Of a stretch of DNA of 64,000 nucleotides, positions 8,341 to 34,693 are shown one piece after another. The DNA comes from Clostridiaceae bacterium. GTDB lineage: Bacteria; Bacillota; Clostridia; Peptostreptococcales; T1SED10-28. Position 1 is the first letter of the stretch; the number at the start of each line of letters is the position of its first letter. The translations under genes and the position numbers were made by a program. Location of the stretch: contig PWFQ01000075.1 of assembly GCA_003554105.1 (NCBI GenBank), positions 1-64,000 on the forward strand. The letters run 5' to 3'. Under the pieces are notes generated by a model. The model was not told the origin of the DNA. It searched no databases and saw only the letters and a list, made by a program, of their open reading frames with translations.

Positions 8341-8581
8341 TTAATATCATACTTGGTTGATCGACTATGAAGGGGAAGAGTAAGAAAAGGCACTATATCT
8401 CAGAGAAAAAACACCTATGGCTGGAAGTGTTTTATATATCCTTATCTGAAAACTACCCCGGAGTTTCTTTTCCTAAAGAAAAGACGTTAGCTGCGTTATG
8501 GCTTTTAAGTGGATTGTAAAATCTATTTAGGTGGAACCGCGGGAATATCCTCGTCCTATAGCACATAGGCGGGGATTTTTT
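8341..8581 (+). promoter_or_regulatory. T-box leader of thrS with terminator
   Basis: The conserved T-box AGGTGGAACCGCGGG is at 8529-8543, followed by a terminator (CCTCG-T-CC at 8549 pairing with GGCGGGG, loop between) and six T residues ending at 8581. Uncharged tRNA-Thr is expected to pair with the T-box and turn the terminator off. The likely specifier is in AACTACCCCGG (8450-8460): ACT and ACC, in one frame, are both threonine codons, so the amino acid is clear even though the exact triplet is not. This and its promoter fill the 346-base gap before thrS. Confidence 0.93.
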
Positions 8582-12829: not shown

Positions 12830-13096
12830 TTAATTCCATACTGAACAGTTAATGAAAGAGGTTAGTATGTTTACAACCCTTAAAAAGGATACAGAGAGGT
12901 TTGTCTAGGCTGAGAGCATACCCTGTAAACAGAAATTTCCCTCTGGAGATGCAGAACTGAAATTCCAGTAAGTCCTGCCGGTAACCGCCGTTATGGATAT
13001 GAGAGGCTATTCATTTGATTTTACGTAAATGAAATGCTATTAGGGTGGTAACGCGGAGTCTGCTTCGTCCCTTCAATGAGGGGGCGGAGCTTTTTT
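12830..13096 (+). promoter_or_regulatory. T-box leader of pheST with terminator
   Basis: The T-box AGGGTGGTAACGCGGA is at 13042-13057. The terminator GCTTCGTCCC/GGGGGCGGAGC spans 13062-13090 with six T residues after it. The specifier is probably TTC (Phe) in AGAAATTTCCCTCTGG near 12931-12946, in the position equivalent to the threonine triplet of the thrS leader. This region and the promoter account for the 353-base gap before pheS. Confidence 0.92.
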
Positions 13097-19312: not shown

Positions 19313-20386
19313 ATGGGATTTTCGATCGGAACATCAATTATGATGTCTAAGCAAAAGAAGTTGGAAGAGTTGATAAATTTTACAAATCAACTGGAAGTAA
19401 TGGTTTTATCTGGGCTGAGTTTTAGTGAATCGATGGAGATACTTGAAAAAACAATAACCTGCTCAGCTTATCATAACAAGTTGAAGGACATGAATGTTTC
19501 TTTGAAAGAAGGAGCATCGATTAAAAATTGCTTGCACCCACAACTGTTTCCTTCGTTCTATGTGCATACCATTGGTATAGGTGAAGCAAGTGGCAATCTT
19601 GATCATTCTCTTTCGACTTTACGAGAGTTTTATGAGAAAGAACTGAATTGGGTTAAACAACGGAATGCAATCATGGTTTATCCTAAAATTTTACTCGTCT
19701 GCTCACTATTTTTATTAATATTGACCTCTAAATGGATCATACCAAGTTTTGAAAATCAACAAGGGACACAAACAGGCCCTGATCCATGGTACTTTAAAAT
19801 ACCTATGTTTATTAATGATCATTTACTCTGGTTTTTCCTTTTAAGCCTGACGTTAGGATGTATTTCGAAAATTCTTATGAGAAACAATGAAGTTCACAAT
19901 CTCATTCGGAGGGTACTGTGCAAATTGTCGATGATCGTTCCTGTGATCAATAGTTTGTCAATTGCAAAGATGCAGTTAACTTTTTCTGAGAATCTAAAAA
20001 CATTGATACAATGTGGAGCAACAATACCGGAAGCAATTGCATATATAGGGGATGATTCAGATCAGATTTTCTTTGCAAAGTCGTTGCAAGGGGTAGAAGA
20101 TTCCTTGCATCTTGGAGATTCTCTTCATTTAGCAATGGAAAAAAATAAAAAATTATTTTCTCCATTTATGATCCATTTGATTCGCGCAGGGGAAGAGTCT
20201 GGAGATTTGGTTAAAGTACTGGATCGTATGATTTATTATTTGGAGGGAAAGCACATTCAAAGCATGACAAAATTCTACAAAATTCTAGAACCGGTAATCA
20301 TTATAATAATGGCTTCGTACATCGGGTTAATTATGCTGTCAATTCTGCTGCCGATGTTAGACACCTTTGATGCAATTCTTCCCTAG
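19313..20386 (+). CDS. comGB: Type II secretion F / ComGB-like membrane platform protein
   Basis: This polytopic inner-membrane protein, 357 residues, holds two GspF repeats. The repeats are about 20-130 (FTNQLEVMVLSGLSFSESM) and 220-330 (FSENLKTLIQCGATIPEAI), each followed by membrane helices at about 125-145, 165-190 and 330-350. It is the platform on which the ATPase acts during pilin insertion. It begins 11 bases after the ATPase gene with AGGAGG. Confidence 0.92.
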   Translation: MGFSIGTSIMMSKQKKLEELINFTNQLEVMVLSGLSFSESMEILEKTITCSAYHNKLKDMNVSLKEGASIKNCLHPQLFPSFYVHTIGIGEASGNLDHSLSTLREFYEKELNWVKQRNAIMVYPKILLVCSLFLLILTSKWIIPSFENQQGTQTGPDPWYFKIPMFINDHLLWFFLLSLTLGCISKILMRNNEVHNLIRRVLCKLSMIVPVINSLSIAKMQLTFSENLKTLIQCGATIPEAIAYIGDDSDQIFFAKSLQGVEDSLHLGDSLHLAMEKNKKLFSPFMIHLIRAGEESGDLVKVLDRMIYYLEGKHIQSMTKFYKILEPVIIIIMASYIGLIMLSILLPMLDTFDAILP

Positions 20387-20408
20387 AGCCATTAAAAAGA
20401 GGTGAGAG

Positions 20409-20786
20409 ATGATGAATAAAGCAGGATTTACACTAATAGAGCTTTTAACAGTTATTGCAATATTGTCAATCATTATGTCAATTGCTATACCCAGAACATC
20501 AGGTTATATCGAAAGAGGATCATTAACAGTAGATTTAAGCAATGCAAAAATCGTAAGTAATCATATGATTATATTCCATCAAGTAAGAGGCAGATGGCCA
20601 AATTCTGAAAAAGAGTTGTTTGGACATGGTGGCTTGGCTGTTGAGAAACCAAAAGCACAAAGTTCATCCTCAAGATTTATTTTTGGTATAGAAGGTATAG
20701 TGCAGCTGATTTATAAAGATGAAGTTCATTGGTGTTCGAAAGGAACAACAACCATAATAAATCCTGGTAGTGAACTGCCTAAATGA
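20409..20786 (+). CDS. comGC: Major pseudopilin, ComGC-like
   Basis: The 125-residue prepilin has a short leader ending in glycine (KAG|FTLIELL), with Glu at +5 and a hydrophobic helix after it, as cut by a type IV prepilin peptidase. The peptidase gene itself is not in this window. It has the position and size of ComGC, the main subunit of the competence pseudopilus. The C-terminal half is polar, with no obvious cysteine pair. Confidence 0.85.
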   Translation: MMNKAGFTLIELLTVIAILSIIMSIAIPRTSGYIERGSLTVDLSNAKIVSNHMIIFHQVRGRWPNSEKELFGHGGLAVEKPKAQSSSSRFIFGIEGIVQLIYKDEVHWCSKGTTTIINPGSELPK

Positions 20787-20801
20787 GAGGAGATCTGGGG
20801 T

Positions 20802-21248
20802 TTGAAAATTAAAATATCAGAAATCTCAGGAATCACCTTAATCGAACTGCTTGTTGCTTTAGGGATTATGACGTTATTGTTTGCGATTGTTCATCCTCAT
20901 AGTGTTTGGCATAAAGAACAGATTGAAATCAACAACACCACCCATGAGATTTTTGAAAGCATAAAACTAGCAAGACATTTAAGTGTATATGAAGAGAGTT
21001 CCTACTTTGTTCGTATAAGAAACAATCAATTAATTGTGCAGAAAAATTCCTGGGGGAGTCAACCAGTTCAAGAGCTTTCCATTCCGGAACATATAGTTAT
21101 CCGTTTTTTCAATGGAAATTCTGTCACTTTTTCTCGAAATGGAACGACTTCTTATAACCATATTTTGATTGGAAACGAAAAAGCGGATTTATATAAAATC
21201 ACACTCAGCATAGGATCATCCAGAGTTGATTTGGAAAGGATTGATTAG
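20802..21248 (+). CDS. Minor pseudopilin, ComGD/GspH-like
   Basis: The 148-residue prepilin shows the processing site SG|ITLIELL (cleavage after residue 10, Glu at +5). The GspH-like body follows, with IFESIKLARHLSVYE and VTFSRNGTT, a strand pattern common in minor pilins of this type. TTG start at 20802 with GAGGAG upstream. It is in the fourth position of the operon, matching comGD. Confidence 0.82.
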   Translation: MKIKISEISGITLIELLVALGIMTLLFAIVHPHSVWHKEQIEINNTTHEIFESIKLARHLSVYEESSYFVRIRNNQLIVQKNSWGSQPVQELSIPEHIVIRFFNGNSVTFSRNGTTSYNHILIGNEKADLYKITLSIGSSRVDLERID

Positions 21249-21590
21249 ATGGATATGAATTTGAAGTCTAAAGGAGCTACGTTAATCGAAATGATTATAA
21301 GCATCGGTCTGCTAAGTATCGTAACGTTATTATTAACGCACAATCTGTACCAACAAGTTCAGACATATATGCATTTAAATGATCGATATTTCGACATTAT
21401 TGAATTGAAAAATGCAACCGAAGTATATTTAAGAAACCAGGATCATTATCAATCACAAAGAGGCAATCGTATTACTGTTTCAAAGGAAGATTCATTCTAT
21501 GATGGAAGCATCTACATAATCCACTTAGAAAATCGAGAAAGAGATGAGATGATGTCCATTGAAGTATTCTCTTTTCGTCACAAAGAATAA
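21249..21590 (+). CDS. Minor pseudopilin, comGE position
   Basis: A short prepilin of 113 residues with cleavage site KG|ATLIEMI (after residue 9) and Glu at +5. The rest is mostly charged and beta-rich, without recognisable motifs. It starts directly after the previous stop codon, so translation is likely coupled. Confidence 0.78.
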   Translation: MDMNLKSKGATLIEMIISIGLLSIVTLLLTHNLYQQVQTYMHLNDRYFDIIELKNATEVYLRNQDHYQSQRGNRITVSKEDSFYDGSIYIIHLENRERDEMMSIEVFSFRHKE

Positions 21591-22119
21591 TTCAAAAAAT
21601 GAAAACATTGGTGGAATTATTTTAATTGAGCTGATGGTGACTCTTTGTTTGTTCGTTCTCTTATTAGGGTTTTTGCTACGAATATTTCTGTTGACCTATA
21701 CACATTGGTCCAAAGAGTTTGATCATCGAAATACCTTTGAAGAAATGCAATATGCTATACATTACATCGATCGAATGACGAAACGTATGGACCAACAAAC
21801 CTTTCAATACGATAAATGGTCCAGCACCCTAACATGTAAAAATTATTTGGGAGAAACATCATATTTTGATTTTAGTGGGAATCGTCGGGTTGATCGAAAT
21901 ACATATCTTTACTATGACAGAAACAGAGGAGAGCTCATGACCAATAAAAACAAAGAATATAACACATTGATTAAAGGAGTAAAAGAACTGACAGTTGAAT
22001 ATGAAAACACAGGATTGCTATCGCTTCAACTTGAAATGGAGGGTTCAATAGAAGAATATTTCAAAATCACCAGGGTATTTAGAATTAATCCCAAGGGGAA
22101 TGATTATGAACAGGAATAA
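21559..22119 (+). CDS. Minor pseudopilin, ComGF/GspJ-like
   Basis: The 186-residue prepilin has an unusually long leader of 19 residues before the site GG|IILIELMV (Glu at +5). The body includes the YYDRNRGELM segment seen in GspJ-like minor pilins. The TTG at 21559 overlaps the previous gene by 32 bases. No better start exists in this frame before the processing site, but the ribosome site is weak, so the exact start is uncertain. Confidence 0.75.
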   Translation: MKYSLFVTKNNSKNENIGGIILIELMVTLCLFVLLLGFLLRIFLLTYTHWSKEFDHRNTFEEMQYAIHYIDRMTKRMDQQTFQYDKWSSTLTCKNYLGETSYFDFSGNRRVDRNTYLYYDRNRGELMTNKNKEYNTLIKGVKELTVEYENTGLLSLQLEMEGSIEEYFKITRVFRINPKGNDYEQE

Positions 22120-22633
22120 AGGGTACATCCTCATTTCTCTTTTATTATTTTTTTCCGTCATTTCTTTGGTTTTATTTTCTTTTCATCGGTACTTTCTTAT
22201 TGAGAGCTTAAAGGTCCAAGGAAAATACGAGAATACCCGTGCATATTATCTCGCTGAGTCATCTTCTTTGCTGTATTATCATAAAATTCTTCATGAGGTT
22301 AATCAACTTGCTGATGAAAATTTTAGTAATGTATGTTTAAAATGCTTTGATCATAGTTTAATGAATTTCAAACAACAACTCCAGGAGAAGCTTCAGGATG
22401 ACTGCTTTTGGAATAATATCGAAAAACCTTTCTTTAAGACTTATAATAACGGATATGTAATACACGGGGAACTTATTTCCCTCGATGGAAAAATACACTA
22501 CAAAGCATCAGGCGAGTATAGTAATACAGCAATTATCTACTATGTAACATTAACCTATCCGGAAATTGTTTATTTAGAGGATGAAGTCAGCATTATTCTT
22601 CCGAAAATAGCAAGCTATTATCAAGGCTATTAA
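22106..22633 (+). CDS. Minor pseudopilin, ComGG/PilX-like
   Basis: The 175-residue protein begins MNRNKG|YILISLL, a prepilin-like N-terminus in which +5 is Ser and not Glu. Loss of Glu5 is typical of GspK/PilX tip subunits. ARAYYLAESS-like sequence (TRAYYLAESSSLLYY) after the helix is the PilX pattern. I place the start at 22106, since AAGGGG (22093-22098) is too close to the ATG at 22100. It overlaps the previous gene by 14 bases and is the last of the operon. Confidence 0.75.
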   Translation: MNRNKGYILISLLLFFSVISLVLFSFHRYFLIESLKVQGKYENTRAYYLAESSSLLYYHKILHEVNQLADENFSNVCLKCFDHSLMNFKQQLQEKLQDDCFWNNIEKPFFKTYNNGYVIHGELISLDGKIHYKASGEYSNTAIIYYVTLTYPEIVYLEDEVSIILPKIASYYQGY

Positions 22634-26866: not shown

Positions 26867-27104
26867 CTTAAGCTATGAAAAGATCATTCAGAGGCTGGAT
26901 GAGATTTTAGAGATGTTAACGAAGAATGAACTTAATCTTGACCAATCGATGGAGCTCTACGAAGAAGGTGCAGGACTTTACAGAAAAGCAAAGGAAATTC
27001 TCAAAGAAAAAGAGGACCGGGCATTTGAAATCGTTCAAGAATTAAATAATGAACCATCTATTACTGAACAAATTACACTTGATGAAATGGAGGAAGATCA
27101 TTGA
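26847..27104 (+). CDS. xseB: Exodeoxyribonuclease VII small subunit
   Basis: The 85-residue helical hairpin protein shows YEKIIQRLDEILEMLTKNEL and LDQSMELYEEG, the XseB signature. Several copies attach to the XseA tail. It overlaps xseA by 20 bases and ispA by 4, so the three are translationally coupled. Confidence 0.95.
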   Translation: MKETRNDLSYEKIIQRLDEILEMLTKNELNLDQSMELYEEGAGLYRKAKEILKEKEDRAFEIVQELNNEPSITEQITLDEMEEDH

Positions 27105-27988
27105 ACTTTAAAGAACAAATAGAAAAATATCAGCAACTTGTGGATCAATCTCTTGATCAATACCTGGAAAAAGAGAATGATGAGAATGATATTCTCTATG
27201 AGTCGATGCGCTATAGTGTTTTTGCAGGCGGAAAGCGACTTCGCCCTATTCTGGTGCTGGCGAGCTACGAGCTTTTTGACCAGGAATTCAAGGAAGCTTT
27301 ACCACTGGCAGCTTCTTTTGAAATGATTCACACTTATTCATTAATACATGATGATTTACCGGCAATGGATAATGATGATTATAGAAGGGGAAAGCTGACA
27401 AATCATAAAGTTTACAGTGAAAGCATTGCGATTTTGGCGGGAGATGGTCTGTTAAACCTTGCTCATGAAATACTTTTAAAAGAGATTATTCATTCAAGTG
27501 ATCCTGTTCGAACAGCGAAAAGCAGTTACATTCTTTCAGAAGCTTCCGGTGTTAAAGGTATGATCGGTGGCCAGGTTGTGGATATTTTATCGGAAGGGAA
27601 AGAAATATCGAAGAATACGCTCAACTATATTCATAAAAACAAAACCGGTGCATTGATAACGGCTGCAATGGTTTCAGGAGCTTTACTAGCAAAAGCTTCC
27701 GAAGATGACTTAATAAACGTTGAGAAGATTGGTGGGAATTTAGGACTCGCTTTTCAAATTAAAGATGATCTTCTTGATATCACAGGTGACGAATCAAAAC
27801 TTGGGAAAAAAACAGGATCCGATGAGAATTGCGATAAATCAACTTATCCGAAGCTTTTTGGAGTAGAAGAATCCCAAAGAAAAGTTGAGGAACTGACAAA
27901 GGAAGCAAAAGAGCTTTTAACGAACTATCTTCCAAAATCTCAATTTTTGTTGGACTTATGTGATTATCTTATAATGAGAGATCACTAA
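27101..27988 (+). CDS. ispA: Polyprenyl (farnesyl/geranyl) diphosphate synthase
   Basis: The 295-residue trans-isoprenyl diphosphate synthase makes FPP from IPP and DMAPP in the cytoplasm. The first Asp-rich motif is HDDLPAMDNDD and the second is IKDDLLD; FAGGKRLRP binds IPP. The TTG start at 27101 overlaps the xseB stop, with GGAGG upstream. In the classical OLE locus, ispA is the gene directly before the RNA; here one further gene intervenes. Confidence 0.95.
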   Translation: MNFKEQIEKYQQLVDQSLDQYLEKENDENDILYESMRYSVFAGGKRLRPILVLASYELFDQEFKEALPLAASFEMIHTYSLIHDDLPAMDNDDYRRGKLTNHKVYSESIAILAGDGLLNLAHEILLKEIIHSSDPVRTAKSSYILSEASGVKGMIGGQVVDILSEGKEISKNTLNYIHKNKTGALITAAMVSGALLAKASEDDLINVEKIGGNLGLAFQIKDDLLDITGDESKLGKKTGSDENCDKSTYPKLFGVEESQRKVEELTKEAKELLTNYLPKSQFLLDLCDYLIMRDH

Positions 27989-28006: not shown

Positions 28007-28489
28007 GTGAATTTTATTCAGGGAGTTACACAAAACAGCTATTTGATTGTTGCCTTTTTTTCCTGGTTTATAGCACAATCAATTAAGGTAGTCCATACTT
28101 TGATTAGAGATAGAACCTTTAATTTTTCCAGGTTTATCGGCTCAGGAGGAATGCCAAGTTCCCACTCCTCCTTCGTTATGGGATTAAGCACTACGATTGG
28201 ATTGAATCATGGTTGGAATTCTGCGACTTTTGCAGTATCTATTGTGTTTTCACTTGTGGTTATGTACGATGCTGCAGGAGTGAGAAGAGCAGTCGGTAAA
28301 CAGGCAATCATTGTAAACAAAATGATTGATGATCTTCAGGTACAAAGAAAATCAAAAAAGGAAAAAGGACAAAAAGGAGACCATCATCCAATTACAGAAA
28401 AGCGATTGAAAGAGTTAATCGGGCACACTCCTATTGAGGTTTTTGCGGGAGCCATACTTGGCATAATTGTTGCTAACATAATGGTTTGA
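28007..28489 (+). CDS. Divergent PAP2 family membrane protein (YuiD/DUF212)
   Basis: The 160-residue integral membrane protein has the family core GMPSSHSSFVMGLSTTIG and YDAAGVRRAVGKQA, with three or four hydrophobic helices and a last helix after VFAGAILG. The family is a distant relative of PAP2 lipid phosphatases. A role in polyprenyl or phospholipid phosphate turnover is a guess that fits the isoprenoid neighbours. GTG start with GAGGAGG upstream. Its stop codon overlaps the -35 box of the OLE RNA promoter. Confidence 0.87.
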   Translation: MNFIQGVTQNSYLIVAFFSWFIAQSIKVVHTLIRDRTFNFSRFIGSGGMPSSHSSFVMGLSTTIGLNHGWNSATFAVSIVFSLVVMYDAAGVRRAVGKQAIIVNKMIDDLQVQRKSKKEKGQKGDHHPITEKRLKELIGHTPIEVFAGAILGIIVANIMV

Positions 28490-28514
28490 TATCTGTTGAT
28501 AACTATGTTATACT
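28486..28514 (+). promoter_or_regulatory. Promoter of the OLE RNA
   Basis: TTGATA (28486-28491) and TATACT (28509-28514) are 17 bases apart, each one mismatch from the sigma-A consensus. Initiation about 7 bases on (near 28521) falls just before the first base of the RNA's terminal helix at 28527. The -35 box overlaps the yuiD-like stop codon. Confidence 0.75.
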
Positions 28515-28526
28515 TAGTTATAAAAA

Positions 28527-29086
28527 ACAGTGGCACAGCACTCCAGTCAATAAACCGATCTTTGAAGGCGGGGCTAAAAATCCGTCGAAGGGCACATCGA
28601 TGAAGTTCTTAGTTTTGGCTGCCGACGCCCAGTCGGGGGTCAGTTCTGAGAGTAAGGAGATGGGGGCGATCCACAAGGGCATGTGGGCGTTGACCCTCGC
28701 TTCGCGGAGACCAACTAGTATTTTCAAAGGGTGAAACCTACAGCTTTCCAAGGAAACTGTAGTGTAGCCTGCCTTGAGTGGAATAGGTGGATAGGGAGAT
28801 CAGATTCGATTCTTTAAAGGGCCCTGAGAGTCGGATTATCGCTACCTGAAACCTATACTGCAAAAGAGGCTAAGAGATCTGTTTATTGTTGAGGAAAACT
28901 CCTGGACTGTTCATTAAGAGGTGCATTTAGGATTACAGTACGGACTAAGTGGTAATCCAGTCTTGCCTGTGGTGACAAGGCAAACTTTGATTTAATGGGA
29001 AACCACTGTAATGGCGACATACAGCATCAAAGGGGGAAATCCAACTGGACCTAAGCCGTAAAATTTACTAAGTGCATTGCCACTGT
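28527..29086 (+). ncRNA. OLE RNA (ornate, large, extremophilic), about 560 nt
   Basis: This is a non-coding stretch, GC-rich in its 5' half in an AT-rich genome, lying between ispA-yuiD and a matching oapA gene. That is the known location of OLE RNA in Firmicutes. The ends pair over several consecutive helices: ACAGTGGCA (28527-28535) with TGCCACTGT (29078-29086), GCACT (28538-28542) with AGTGC (29071-29075), and TCCAGT (28542-28547) with ACTGGA (29044-29049). An internal hairpin closes CTACAG/CTGTAG at 28738-28762, and TTGCCT/AGGCAA pairs near 28963-28982. OLE RNA binds the membrane protein OapA and acts at the cell membrane in tolerance to alcohol, cold and magnesium stress. The few ORFs in the region lack ribosome sites. 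A covariance search was not possible, but context, size and paired ends agree. Confidence 0.92.
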
Positions 29087-29114
29087 AAAGCTGATAGAGA
29101 ACCTATCAGCTTTA
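29086..29114 (+). promoter_or_regulatory. 12-bp hairpin between OLE RNA and oapA
   Basis: TAAAGCTGATAG (29086-29097) pairs perfectly with CTATCAGCTTTA (29103-29114) around AGAAC. It directly abuts the terminal helix of the OLE RNA and lies 13 bases before the oapA ribosome site. No clear T-run follows, so it may be a weak terminator or a 3'-end processing or stabilising element. Confidence 0.65.
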
Positions 29115-29138
29115 TATCTATTTACTGGGAGGATTCTA

Positions 29139-29732
29139 TTGAGCGAGAAAAATCATAATAAAAATGAACGTTATTTTAAATATATCTGGACGAAGTATAA
29201 CTTGAAATGGGTAGTTGTGATATCCATATGGACATTCTTTTTAACGATCCTGTTTACTTTGGCATCTGAATCAATATTAAACAACACCCAAATTTTTTTG
29301 TCTTTTTTGATTCTAATTTGCATAATATTTCTCGGGGTTGCAAGTGATATGGTCGGGATTGCAATTACTGCTGCATCAGACAAACCTTTCCATGCAATGG
29401 CTTCTGATAAAGTTCGTGGTGCAAAATATGCTATAAAACTTAAAAAGAATACCGGTGTTGTTTCAAATTTCTGCAACGATGTCGTAGGTGATATCTGTGG
29501 TATTATTAGTGGTGTAGCAGGTGCTAGTATTGTTCTGCAGATCGATTTTATCCATAGAGGAATTTTAACGATTATTTTAACCAGTTTTATCGCTTCTTTG
29601 ACCGTTGGAGGCAAAGCGCTTGGAAAGAATTTAGCAGTATATAAATCCCATGAGATCGTCTTCAGAACTGCTAAAATCTTGACTCGACTTAAAGATGGAC
29701 TGGGAATTGATTTCATAAAAGAAAATAAGTAA
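29139..29732 (+). CDS. oapA: OLE-associated membrane protein OapA
   Basis: The 197-residue protein has four predicted membrane helices: about 24-46, 52-76, 117-138 and 145-165. A conserved-looking basic segment (KVRGAKYAIKLKKNTG) lies in the loop after helix 2, and a D114-x-x-x-D118 motif (NDVVGD) comes before helix 3. OapA is known to dimerise on OLE RNA and hold it at the membrane; a DxxxD motif resembling those of divalent-metal transporters is, as I recall, a family feature. The TTG at 29139 follows GGGAGG. Its position directly after the RNA and before dxs supports the assignment. Confidence 0.9.
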   Translation: MSEKNHNKNERYFKYIWTKYNLKWVVVISIWTFFLTILFTLASESILNNTQIFLSFLILICIIFLGVASDMVGIAITAASDKPFHAMASDKVRGAKYAIKLKKNTGVVSNFCNDVVGDICGIISGVAGASIVLQIDFIHRGILTIILTSFIASLTVGGKALGKNLAVYKSHEIVFRTAKILTRLKDGLGIDFIKENK

Positions 29733-29754
29733 AAAAAGAAAGCGAGTGAAGAAT

Positions 29755-31656
29755 ATGAAGAACATTTTAGATCATATCGAATCACCGGAAGACATAAGAA
29801 AACTGAATGATAATGAAATACAAATCTTAGCCAAGGAACTAAGAGAATTTTTAATTGATAACGTGTCAAAAACCGGAGGTCATCTTGCTTCAAATCTGGG
29901 AGTTGTGGAATTAACTTTAGCTCTGCATCAGGTGTTTAATACCCAAGTGGATAAAATTGTATGGGATGTGGGGCACCAAAGTTATGTGCACAAAATTCTA
30001 ACCGGACGAAAAGACAGATTTAGAACTTTGCGACAGTTTAATGGTTTAAGCGGTTTTCCTAAAAGAAATGAAAGCATACATGATCATTTTGACACAGGGC
30101 ATAGCTCTACATCAATCTCTGCCGCTTTAGGTATAGCTACAGCAAGAGATCTTAAAAATGAAAAATACTCAGTTACTGCAATTATTGGTGATGGCGCACT
30201 AACAGGAGGAATGGCTTTCGAAGCTCTCAACCATGCAGGGCAAAGCAAGACAAACATGAATATTATCCTGAATGATAATGAAATGTCAATTTCGGAAAAT
30301 ACTGGCGGACTATCAAAGTATTTGAGCAAAGTTCGCACAATGCCGGTTTATAGTCGTGTGAAGGGAGATGTTGAAGCTCTAATCAACCACATCCCCGCTC
30401 TTGGAAAAACCATGATTAGAACAGCAGGTAAAGCCAAAGACAGCATCAAGTATTTTTTTGTCCCCGGTGTATTGTTTGAAGAACTTGGAATCACATATAT
30501 AGGACCTGTTGACGGTCATAATTATCATGATACTTTAGAGGCTTTAAAACGGGCTAAAGGAATTTCCGGCCCGGTAATTATTCATCTGATTACTAAAAAA
30601 GGGAAAGGTTACTCTTTTGCAGAAGAAAGACCTGAAAAATTTCACGGTGTCAGTCCCTTTAATAAGGAGACCGGACAACCACTGGAACAATCTAAGAAGT
30701 TCTCTTTTTCAAAAGTTGCAGGGAAGTCTTTGACTGATTTGGCATATGAGAACCATTCAATTACAGCAATTACGGCCGCCATGCCTGATGGAACGGGTAT
30801 GAACGAGTTCAAGGATAAATATCCCGATCGTTTCTTTGATGTTGGAATTGCAGAACAGCATGCCGTCACAATGGCCGCAGGGCAGGCCGCTAACGGTTTG
30901 AACCCGGTTTTTGCTGTCTATTCAACGTTTTTACAACGTGGATTCGACCAAATACTGCACGATGTAGCTTTGCAAAATCTACCGGTAACATTTTTATTAG
31001 ACCGAGCCGGGGTTGTAGGGGCTGATGGTGAAACTCACCAAGGAATTTATGACATATCCTACCTGTCGATGATTCCGAATATGCAAATTTTATCGCCAAT
31101 GAATGGAACCGAGTTGAATGCGATGATCAAATATGCAATTCAAGAACCTGGTCCGGTTGCAATCCGGTATCCAAAAGGAGATGCGCTTGAGTGCGACTTC
31201 AATTCGGAGAAAAATATACAAACAGGAAAAGGTGAAATCATTAATTTTGAAGGCAACGATGTGGTAATCTTTGCTTTTGGACCTCTTGTTAATTCGGGAA
31301 AAAGGGTCTTGGAAAAACTCAAATCGTATGACATCTTTGGAACCCTTGTTAACTTGCGTTTTGCTAAACCCTTGGATCATCAATTAATTTTGGATCTGAC
31401 GGCAAAGGCTGACCAAGTGATAGTAATGGAAGATCATGCATCAATCGGAGGCTTGGGCTCGTTAATCACTCATTTGTTGAATGATCATGATCAATTAAAA
31501 AGAATCACGACCTTCGCTTTGCCCGACGAATTTATCCAACATGGTTCAGTGAGCGAGGTTTATAAAACCTATGAGATTGATGAGTATAGCATTGTACAAA
31601 GGATACTGACACTCAAAGACAAAAAGAGATCTCATCTTCGAAGGATTTCAAAGTAA
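29755..31656 (+). CDS. dxs: 1-deoxy-D-xylulose-5-phosphate synthase
   Basis: The first enzyme of the MEP isoprenoid pathway, joining pyruvate and glyceraldehyde 3-phosphate. At 633 residues it is full length: thiamine diphosphate site GDGALTGGMAFEALN, the DVGHQSYVHKILTGR substrate region, a transketolase pyrimidine domain (FFDVGIAEQHAVTMAAG) and the C-terminal domain. The ATG at 29755 is chosen over the GTG at 29746. With ispA and ispH elsewhere in the window, it shows that this organism uses the MEP route. Confidence 0.97.
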   Translation: MKNILDHIESPEDIRKLNDNEIQILAKELREFLIDNVSKTGGHLASNLGVVELTLALHQVFNTQVDKIVWDVGHQSYVHKILTGRKDRFRTLRQFNGLSGFPKRNESIHDHFDTGHSSTSISAALGIATARDLKNEKYSVTAIIGDGALTGGMAFEALNHAGQSKTNMNIILNDNEMSISENTGGLSKYLSKVRTMPVYSRVKGDVEALINHIPALGKTMIRTAGKAKDSIKYFFVPGVLFEELGITYIGPVDGHNYHDTLEALKRAKGISGPVIIHLITKKGKGYSFAEERPEKFHGVSPFNKETGQPLEQSKKFSFSKVAGKSLTDLAYENHSITAITAAMPDGTGMNEFKDKYPDRFFDVGIAEQHAVTMAAGQAANGLNPVFAVYSTFLQRGFDQILHDVALQNLPVTFLLDRAGVVGADGETHQGIYDISYLSMIPNMQILSPMNGTELNAMIKYAIQEPGPVAIRYPKGDALECDFNSEKNIQTGKGEIINFEGNDVVIFAFGPLVNSGKRVLEKLKSYDIFGTLVNLRFAKPLDHQLILDLTAKADQVIVMEDHASIGGLGSLITHLLNDHDQLKRITTFALPDEFIQHGSVSEVYKTYEIDEYSIVQRILTLKDKKRSHLRRISK

Positions 31657-31666
31657 GGAGATGGCT

Positions 31667-32479
31667 ATGAAAAAAGAACGATTGGATATCGTATTGGTAG
31701 AACGGGGATTCTTTGATAGTCGCGAAAAAGCAAAAAGATCAATCATGGCAGGTCAAGTTCTGGTAGACGGTTATATTGCTGATAAACCGGGAACAAAAAT
31801 ATCATTGGATCATCCCATTGTTATAAAAGGAAATCCTATACCATATGTTAGTCGAGGTGGGCTTAAATTAGAAAAAGCACTTAAGGAATTCAGCATTAAC
31901 TTAACAAATAAAGTTGTAATGGATATTGGATCCTCAACCGGAGGATTCACTGATTGCATGCTGCAAAATGGAGCAAAAAAAGTTTTCGCAGTTGATGTTG
32001 GCTATGGACAGCTAGATTGGAGTTTAAGAGAAAACGATAAAGTTGTGGTTATGGAGCGGACGAACATACGAAACGTGATACCTGAAATGATTGGAGAGGA
32101 AATGGAACTCATAACCGTTGATGTTTCATTCATTTCTCTAAAACTGGTTCTCCCGGTGGTAAAAAAACTTTTGAAGGATCATGGTGAAGTGGTTGTGTTG
32201 ATTAAACCTCAATTTGAGGCAGGGAAAGAATTTATCGGTAAAAACGGTGTGGTTCGAGATAAACAGATCCACAAGAAGGTTTTGGTCAATGTTTTAGAGA
32301 GTTTCCAGCAAATTGGCTTCAAAATTCTTAACCTATCTTTTTCACCGGTGAAGGGACCAAAGGGAAATATCGAATTTTTAGCCCATTTGTCAGAAAGAGA
32401 CAAAACCGATCCTGTTGAAAAAAAACTTCAAGAAATAGAAATACTTGTGGGCATCGCACATGAGACTCTGTTACAATGA
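31667..32479 (+). CDS. tlyA: TlyA family rRNA methyltransferase
   Basis: An N-terminal S4 RNA-binding domain (KERLDIVLVERGFFDSREKAK) is joined to a FtsJ-like Rossmann domain (VVMDIGSSTGGFTDCML, VFAVDVGYGQLDW). The 270-residue protein is the family's usual length. TlyA (YqxC) 2'-O-methylates rRNA cytidines. The ATG at 31667 is favoured because AAGGAG (31655-31660) sits too close to the ATG at 31661. It lies between dxs and argR as in Bacillus. Confidence 0.93.
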   Translation: MKKERLDIVLVERGFFDSREKAKRSIMAGQVLVDGYIADKPGTKISLDHPIVIKGNPIPYVSRGGLKLEKALKEFSINLTNKVVMDIGSSTGGFTDCMLQNGAKKVFAVDVGYGQLDWSLRENDKVVVMERTNIRNVIPEMIGEEMELITVDVSFISLKLVLPVVKKLLKDHGEVVVLIKPQFEAGKEFIGKNGVVRDKQIHKKVLVNVLESFQQIGFKILNLSFSPVKGPKGNIEFLAHLSERDKTDPVEKKLQEIEILVGIAHETLLQ

Positions 32480-32523: not shown

Positions 32524-32973
32524 ATGAAGTATACAAGACAAGCAAAAATCCTGGAAATTATCAAAAATAAAGAAATTGAAACCCAGGAAGAACTATCGGA
32601 GGAGTTGCGAAAATTAGGATTGAATGTTACTCAGGCAACTGTATCAAGAGACATTAAAGAACTTCGACTGATAAAAACATTATCGAAATCAGGCCGGTAT
32701 AAGTATGCTACACTGGATAATCAAAGTACGGTATTATCCGATCGATTAATGCGCTTATTTAGAGACTCGATTTTATCAATCGATCATGCAGGAAATATTC
32801 TTGTCCTTAAAACTCTTTCCGGAGCAGGACAGGCTGCTGCTTCAACAATCGATGCAATAAATTATGAGGAAATTGTCGGTACGATTGCAGGAGACGATAC
32901 AATCTTTGTTCTGATCAGAAACGAAGAAGATGTGGAAAATATTAAAGAGAAGTTTAAAACCTTAATGAAGTAA
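32524..32973 (+). CDS. argR: Arginine repressor
   Basis: The 149-residue regulator has an N-terminal winged helix ([12 protein letters not shown]) and a C-terminal hexamerisation and arginine-binding domain ([13 protein letters not shown]). It represses arginine synthesis when arginine is high. No arginine genes lie in the window, so the link to recN is positional, as in many Firmicutes. Confidence 0.95.
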
Positions 32974-33001: not shown

Positions 33002-34693
33002 ATGCTTTTAGAGCTGGAGATTAAAAATTTTGCTTTAATTGATGAGATTCATGTAAATTTCCGTCAAGGCTTGAATATTTTAACCGGTGAAACCGGTGTC
33101 GGCAAATCAATTATCATTAATGGTATTAAATTAACTCTAGGTGAAAGGGCAGATCGTGATTGGATTCGTAAAGGATCAGAAAAGGCATTCGTTCAATCGG
33201 TTTTTCTAAAAACTCCATTAATCAAAAAAAAACTGATGGACCTTGGGTTGAACGGTGATGATGATCATCTCATTCTTTCAAGGGAGCTACATAAAAGTGG
33301 AAGGAGTGTTAGCCGTATTAACGGATCAATTGTCACAAATGCTACAATTAAAGACGTAGCAGACTTGATAATTGACATACATGGACAACATAGTCATCAG
33401 TCATTACTGAATAAAAGCAAACATATTGATTTTCTTGATGATTATATTGGTACTGAAGCCCTTAAAGTCTTGAAGGAGTTTCAGTCTTCCTATTCTCAAT
33501 ATCTACAACTGATTAATGAAAAAGAGAGTTTGAGTATTGATGATCGTGAAAGGGAACGACAAATTGATTTACTCGATTTTCAGATTAAGGAAATCGAAAG
33601 CGCTAACTTTAATATTGGAGAAGAGGAAGAGCTTCTCAAAGAATATCGGATCTTATCTAATAGTGAAGAGCTCTACGAGATGTTAGGTCAAATTCTTGAA
33701 ATTCTGAAACACGAATCGATGACAAACAGTGCAATTGACCAATTAAGCAGTTCTCATGCAATTATGGACAGAATTTCCGGAATCGATACCAAGGTTGATG
33801 GTTTCAAAACACAATTTGAAGATATCCAGTTTCAACTGGAAGACCTGTATCAGGAAATAAGGGATTATCACGATCACATTGAGTATGATGAAGTGCATAT
33901 GACTGCAATCAATGAAAGAATTGCAGAAATAAATCATTTGAAACGTAAATACGGAAACCATATTGAAGATATTCAACAAGAGCTGCTTGTGATGAAAAAG
34001 ACTTATAATCAACTGCTAAACAGCAAAGAAAAAGTGAAAGAATTAAATGATATGATTAAAGTAAAGGAAAAGAAGCTTGAAGACTTAGGGTCTGTTTTAC
34101 ATAAAAAAAGAACAGATGCTGCCAAAGTGTTACAGAATAGAGTTGCAAAAGAATTAAAAGATCTTAATATTCCTCAGGGAGAATTGCTTATATCAATAGA
34201 TCCATTAGCAAAATCAGCAAAGAAAGAACGGATATATAACGAAAAGGGATATGATCATGTAGAGTTTTTAATTAAGACCAATCCCGGAGAAGATCATAAG
34301 CCATTGACAAAAATAGCATCAGGCGGTGAAATTTCACGAGTAATGCTTGCGTTAAAAAGTCTTTTGGCGGATGTTGACAAAATACCCTGCCTGATCTTTG
34401 ACGAAATCGATGCAGGAATTAGTGGAGAAACCGGACATTTAGTGGGAGAAAAGTTGCTGGGTATCAGCAAAAAAAGACAAGTAATCTGTATTACTCACCT
34501 GGCACAAATTGCAGCACGGGGTGATACGCATTTTCTCATATACAAGACTTCAAAAGACGAAAACACCAATACGTATATACGGGAACTTTTAATAGAGGAA
34601 CGGATCCAAGAAATTGGCCGCTTGCTTGGAGGTACGGACTCAGAGATTACCCGAAGACATGCAAGTGAACTGCTTCAGTATACAGTACAGTAA
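33002..34693 (+). CDS. recN: DNA repair protein RecN
   Basis: The 563-residue SMC-like ATPase has Walker A GETGVGKSI near the N-terminus, a long coiled-coil middle (about 160-400), the signature KIASGGEISRVMLALK and Walker B LIFDEIDAGISG. It acts early in double-strand break repair. In sporulating Firmicutes spoIVB follows; here spo0A comes 54 bases later. Confidence 0.96.
   Translation: MLLELEIKNFALIDEIHVNFRQGLNILTGETGVGKSIIINGIKLTLGERADRDWIRKGSEKAFVQSVFLKTPLIKKKLMDLGLNGDDDHLILSRELHKSGRSVSRINGSIVTNATIKDVADLIIDIHGQHSHQSLLNKSKHIDFLDDYIGTEALKVLKEFQSSYSQYLQLINEKESLSIDDRERERQIDLLDFQIKEIESANFNIGEEEELLKEYRILSNSEELYEMLGQILEILKHESMTNSAIDQLSSSHAIMDRISGIDTKVDGFKTQFEDIQFQLEDLYQEIRDYHDHIEYDEVHMTAINERIAEINHLKRKYGNHIEDIQQELLVMKKTYNQLLNSKEKVKELNDMIKVKEKKLEDLGSVLHKKRTDAAKVLQNRVAKELKDLNIPQGELLISIDPLAKSAKKERIYNEKGYDHVEFLIKTNPGEDHKPLTKIASGGEISRVMLALKSLLADVDKIPCLIFDEIDAGISGETGHLVGEKLLGISKKRQVICITHLAQIAARGDTHFLIYKTSKDENTNTYIRELLIEERIQEIGRLLGGTDSEITRRHASELLQYTVQ

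Follow-up and report, generated by a model that had tools for sequence, protein, structure and literature searches.

We found that the + strand of the window (the whole 64,000-nucleotide stretch of DNA that was analysed) carries, according to its ORFs and their Pfam matches, ispA, DUF212, OLE, oapA, dxs, tlyA, argR and recN in that order (Table 1). The preliminary description had proposed this order, with ispA(-yuiD) ahead of OLE, OapA behind it and then dxs-tlyA-argR-recN, and it is borne out by the ORF positions and Pfam. Elsewhere in the window there are two T-box leaders (RF00230) on the + strand, at 8358-8561 and 12843-13075 (119.9 and 98.7 bits), and a run of ORFs at 19313-22633, the products of which include a GspF-like protein and several others with N termini like those of pilins; by eye it resembles a cluster of the type IV pilus or type II secretion kind.

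Table 1 Positions in the window of the OLE RNA, its helices and loops, and the genes and predicted signals around it.
Feature	Position	Strand	Evidence
ispA, polyprenyl synthetase	27101..27988	+	Pfam PF00348, E 1.2e-57
DUF212 divergent PAP2 (YuiD-like) gene	28007..28489	+	Pfam PF02681, E 1.4e-51
ole promoter (predicted)	28486..28514	+	Consensus scan, 10/12 matches with TG
OLE RNA (RF01071), full length	28514..29099	+	467.3 bits; covariation
P1 5' side, CAGUGGC	28528..28534	+	91% of cells paired; 5/7 pairs change on both sides
P3/P3.1 5' side	28548..28562	+	12/14 pairs change on both sides; pairs with 28874-28888
P4 hairpin, A-rich loop	28567..28586	+	CUAAAAAUCCG conserved in alignment
L5 loop GCCCA, published dimer contact	28627..28631	+	GCCCAG in 30/30 relatives
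L6 loop GGGCAUG, published dimer contact	28677..28683	+	GGCAUG in 30/30 relatives
L9.3 palindromic loop GGGCCC, published symmetric kissing loop	28819..28824	+	Palindrome in 29/30 relatives
P3/P3.1 3' side	28874..28888	+	Partner of 28548-28562; alignment
P13 loop GGCGAC, region of published OapB site	29013..29018	+	Conserved in alignment
P1 3' side, GCCACUG	29079..29085	+	Partner of 28528-28534
Terminator-like 14-bp hairpin, ole-oapA	29084..29116	+	-18.2 kcal/mol, z -7.2; clade-conserved stem
oapA, 197-residue CNNM-like membrane protein	29139..29732	+	Homologues, weak CNNM match, fold search
dxs	29746..31656	+	Pfam PF13292, E 5.9e-123
tlyA	31661..32479	+	Pfam S4+FtsJ
argR	32524..32973	+	Pfam Arg_repressor
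recN	33002..34693	+	Pfam SMC_N/AAA_23

OLE is a large folded RNA of many anaerobic and extreme-living bacteria. The match of the window to the Rfam model RF01071 (cmscan: E = 5.4e-134) covers model positions 1-616 of 616 and lies far above the gathering score of 50 bits, which is the curated threshold for OLE. This Infernal comparison had been suggested in the preliminary description, which placed OLE at 28527-29086; as that interval lies inside the full-length match, it is correct to within about 13 bases at its ends, and it is close to the likely OLE transcript. The region had also been described as non-coding, and this holds: the ORFs which overlap it are short (82 aa on the + strand and 77 aa on the - strand) and RNA covariation was seen. 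The 82-aa ORF, the one of these which was scanned, had no Pfam match, and a coding role for the short ORF within ole (28486-28734) was rejected, since it belongs to no Pfam family and the covariation seen there is that of an RNA.

The RNA falls into the full-length class of OLE, and into neither variant 1 nor variant 2, with P8, P9 and the P13 GGCGAC loop present and a short P7. It shares with the Rfam full-length class the full match, the covarying helices, the conserved loops, the downstream oapA and the isoprenoid/DNA-repair neighbours. However, its P7 arm is 14 nt long compared to 38 in the model, there is no CCUCC anti-Shine-Dalgarno mimic in P6, and a terminator-like hairpin of its own lies ahead of oapA. 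At the level of sequence, the region is shown to be an ole gene, accompanied by its partner gene oapA, from a species of Clostridia which has Alkaliphilus and Anaerovirgula among its relatives. As a kind the locus is already well known, both in its RNA family and in its genomic setting; for the published OLE family, 2,822 members have been catalogued in Bacillota (PMC11332333).

The single strand at 28522-29120 folds to -212.9 kcal/mol, compared to -170.7 +/- 6.3 kcal/mol for shuffles (z = -6.7), and none of 100 shuffles folded as low. We aligned 30 OLE sequences of the window's order with MAFFT, blind to structure, and counted pairs over the Rfam structure plus P1 and P3 from the window sequence. 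Among these relatives 90.7% of the cells were paired, and sliding the partner by 1-3 columns lowered this to 39-46%. Taking part of the structure from the window sequence favours the percentage of paired cells, but not the count of two-sided changes, which were found at 91 of the 148 pairs. The ends of OLE had been described as pairing in consecutive helices, and these helices are real, P1 and P3/P3.1 being among them, with covariation. The P3/P3.1 helix has been proposed to span the membrane (PMC12265935). Its P3 strands are of near-constant length in the alignment (sd 0.4 and 0.3 nt, with 2.5-5.3 for the P7, P8 and P9 arms). As a test of the proposal this length gave no discrimination: several other helices vary just as little in length (sd 0), and P3 length therefore speaks neither for nor against spanning of the membrane.

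We also compared the sites through which OLE is known to make contacts. The published dimer contacts, namely L4, L5/L6 and the palindromic L9.3, are kept at the sequence level, and the A-rich loop of P4 is dimer contact B1 in cryo-EM structures (PMC12286853). L9.3 is GGCC-based in most of the relatives, GCGC in L023, GATC in L026 and missing in L025. The kissing-loop palindromes reported by Kretsch et al. are GGCC, GAUC and AGCU (PMC12286853); the loop of L023 (genome G018) reads GGCGCC, not GGGCCC, and is thus of a type outside those reported. L9.3 varies yet stays self-complementary, which supports its role as a dimer contact. The OLE of L025 (genome G006, family f2, positions 1501-2043) is 543 nt long and matches the rest of the model, and because its P9.3 arm is missing it is also without the loop which makes the symmetric kissing contact in the published dimer. 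The OapB site lies in the P13 region (PMC9723947). A perfect anti-Shine-Dalgarno mimic, for bS21 binding, has been reported in the OLE of Halalkalibacterium halodurans (PMC12054373); it should be noted that the bS21 site with its P6 mimic is reported for that species and does not define the family. The CCUCC mimic was found in none of the 30 relatives in the P6 3' strand of the alignment, and its absence across the sampled order is a usable side result. On the P6 5' strand of the window there is a Shine-Dalgarno-like AAGGAG followed by AUG (28654-28662).

The gene downstream of OLE, oapA, has a TTG start preceded by GGGAGG, and its product is 42-59% identical to the products of genes which follow ole in relatives. 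It had been called an OapA-like membrane gene, and this is confirmed by its homologues, which almost always follow OLE motifs. We fetched 80 OapA homologues from named genomes; at least 5 of the 7 OLE core motifs were found upstream in 74 of them, five of the other six were cut by contig ends and one (L095) had 4 of the 7 motifs. The nearest named OapA proteins found were from Anaerovirgula multivorans (57%) and an Alkaliphilus MAG (55%), in a set which may exclude entries from the genome of the window itself or from one very close to it. Anaerovirgula and Alkaliphilus are alkaliphilic anaerobes, which fits the known distribution of the OLE family.

Searches of Pfam, NCBIfam and PDB sequences at default threshold gave no match to OapA, and its identity therefore rests on position, homologues and fold. 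Its CNNM match is weak (E = 0.006, 16.7 bits, below the Pfam cut-off of 28.4; best relative 2.4e-7), and the weak CNNM matches in relatives were located on the OapA gene. An AlphaFold model built with 17 homologues had a pLDDT of 82, and its five best PDB matches were all CNNM/CorB/CorC (best E = 0.009, which is weak; probabilities 0.87-1.00). The predicted fold most resembles CNNM/CorB, with MtCorB as the top PDB matches, though weakly by E-value. This agrees with the published view of OapA as related to MpfA/CorB yet a separate protein (PMC11332333). Like the CNNM/CorB/MpfA Mg2+ transporters, OapA has a CNNM profile match and an MtCorB-like fold; unlike them, it lacks both CBS and CorC domains and does not reach the Pfam cut-off.

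The search for the OapB and OapC partners which the preliminary description had proposed found both genes in the same genome. OapB has 92 residues, lies between map and infA and has "OLE-associated protein B" as its best PDB match (7k9b, E = 3.9e-11). A KOW-profile search for OapB matched solely beside the L24 gene and NusG, and OapB was located via its map-infA position. OapC/YbxF has 87 residues, lies between rpoC and rpsL and has YbxF as its best PDB matches (E = 4e-11). A bS21 gene is also present, and an MpfA/CNNM transporter was not found in this 80%-complete genome. By eye, strong CNNM matches mostly numbered no more than one per OLE-positive relative and often at least two per OLE-negative relative, in agreement with the published anticorrelation. 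As in the OLE RNP of H. halodurans, genes for OapA, OapB, OapC and bS21 are all present; in contrast to it, the RNP is known here from its genes and the transcription unit looks separate, not polycistronic.

Regarding that unit, ole has a predicted promoter of its own, the -35 element of which (TTGATA, 28486-28491) overlaps the TGA stop codon of the DUF212 gene and is followed, after a 17-base spacer, by a predicted extended -10 element (TGTTATACT) which ends at 28514. A -10-like hexamer, mostly TGNTATAAT, was found shortly upstream of OLE in most of the 30 relatives.

At the other end of ole we read the hairpin at 29084-29116 as a putative intrinsic terminator, standing between an RNA which would be abundant and a protein which would be less so. 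The U tract on its 3' side is weak and broken (UUUAUAUCUAUUU), and oapA then follows. The stem CUGAURG...CUAUCAG was found at the ole-oapA site in 20 of the 30 relatives; these 20 belong to families f1, f3, f5, f6 and f7, and the f2, f8, f11 and f12 loci all lack it. Nor was it seen in 30 loci from outside the order, and shuffled downstream regions gave 5 matches to the stem pattern in 6000. Of 198 genomes of the order, 22 had the exact extended hairpin (GCTGATAG-N3-12-CTATCAGCTTT); it lies directly 3' of OLE in 20 of these carriers, and the other two, G393 and G471, have no OLE there. The hairpin arms are 95% identical between families, a value which is inflated because the loci were picked by the same stem pattern, and the linkage counts are the sounder evidence. 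This comparison covers the locus of the window and the regions 3' of OLE in L001-L030, L073-L079, L154-L162 and L164; the hairpin is confined to part of a single order and its relatives, with hardly any copies away from the ole-oapA site.

We could not find a discussion of the conserved hairpin in the OLE literature searched, the coverage of which was incomplete; it is the one element of the locus for which this is the case, and a modest observation. We tentatively suggest, as a possibility which is somewhat doubtful, that in the Alkaliphilus/Tissierellales clade the OLE 3' stem-loop exceeds a plain terminator, for example through protein binding or regulated termination which would set the OLE:OapA ratio. 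That a hairpin conserved across the clade may set the ratio of RNA to protein is a usable side result.

The same hairpin bears on an alternative in which OLE and oapA are mainly one polycistronic transcript and 29084-29116 is a processing or stability element. The cluster has been reported as one polycistronic RNA in H. halodurans (PMC12265935), the U tract of the window is broken, and the sequence of the stem is kept, which is not required of a plain terminator. However, the hairpin is strong, at least 7 U follow it in most f6 relatives and ole's own promoter is conserved, and we regard the polycistronic arrangement as unlikely. A role for the region as cis-acting leader of oapA, and not as a free RNA, seems very improbable: although it lies directly upstream of oapA with a terminator-like hairpin before that gene, the homologous RNA of H. 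halodurans acts as a particle which binds several proteins, and mutation of its protein sites leads to stress phenotypes (PMC9723947, PMC12054373). Least credible of all is a degenerate, non-functional OLE, where a score of 467 bits, low within the range of the order (412-558 among full matches), is set against coverage of all 616 model positions, kept loops and pairs, and an intact promoter and oapA.

Of 60 relatives, 33 carry OLE, as do 114 of the 291 genomes which were sampled across the class. Within the family, OLE gave no match in G002 and G004 and a partial one in G003; a real loss was considered and rejected, as contig ends explain these cases: the contig stops about 111 nt (G002) and about 207 nt (G004) from the ole-oapA hairpin, and the OLE match of G003 runs to the contig end. 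Draft genomes were found to break inside or beside OLE at L036 (G003), L068 (G002), L069 (G004) and L071 (G049), and the absence of OLE from metagenome-assembled genomes may therefore be overcounted. It should also be noted that G049 has two full-length OLE genes, C282:988-1585 (L072) and C403:19317-19921 (L071), which could be due to duplication, strain mixture or contamination.

We are highly confident in a reading of the locus as ole and oapA, with ole expressed from its own promoter as mostly hairpin-ended transcripts which form a folded, dimeric OLE RNP at the membrane with a role in stress. OLE would be transcribed from its own promoter and most transcripts in the clade would probably end at the hairpin, which would leave OLE RNA in excess and oapA to be expressed by read-through or from another promoter. 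The RNA would take the full OLE structure, in keeping with the covariation, and may dimerise via L4, L5/L6 and L9.3. From the conserved sites and the genes present, the CNNM-like OapA would hold OLE at the membrane, OapB would bind P13 and OapC the k-turn near P5. We prefer this explanation because of the full model match, the covariation, the adjoining oapA and the presence of OLE upstream of nearly all sampled OapA homologues, and because of the OapB, OapC and bS21 genes, the CNNM/CorB-like OapA fold, the dimer loops, and the promoter and hairpin. Against it are the bS21 SD/ASD mimic, which is not conserved, the weak U tract, the polycistronic RNA of H. halodurans (PMC12265935) and the weak E-value of the OapA fold (0.009).

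OLE is among the largest structured bacterial RNAs, and this locus adds one more full-length member to the family. By analogy with H. halodurans, where such a role has been shown, the OLE particle would be expected to aid the cell under stresses such as high Mg2+, cold and alcohol, and we infer that this organism may likewise use OLE in alcohol, cold or Mg2+ stress.
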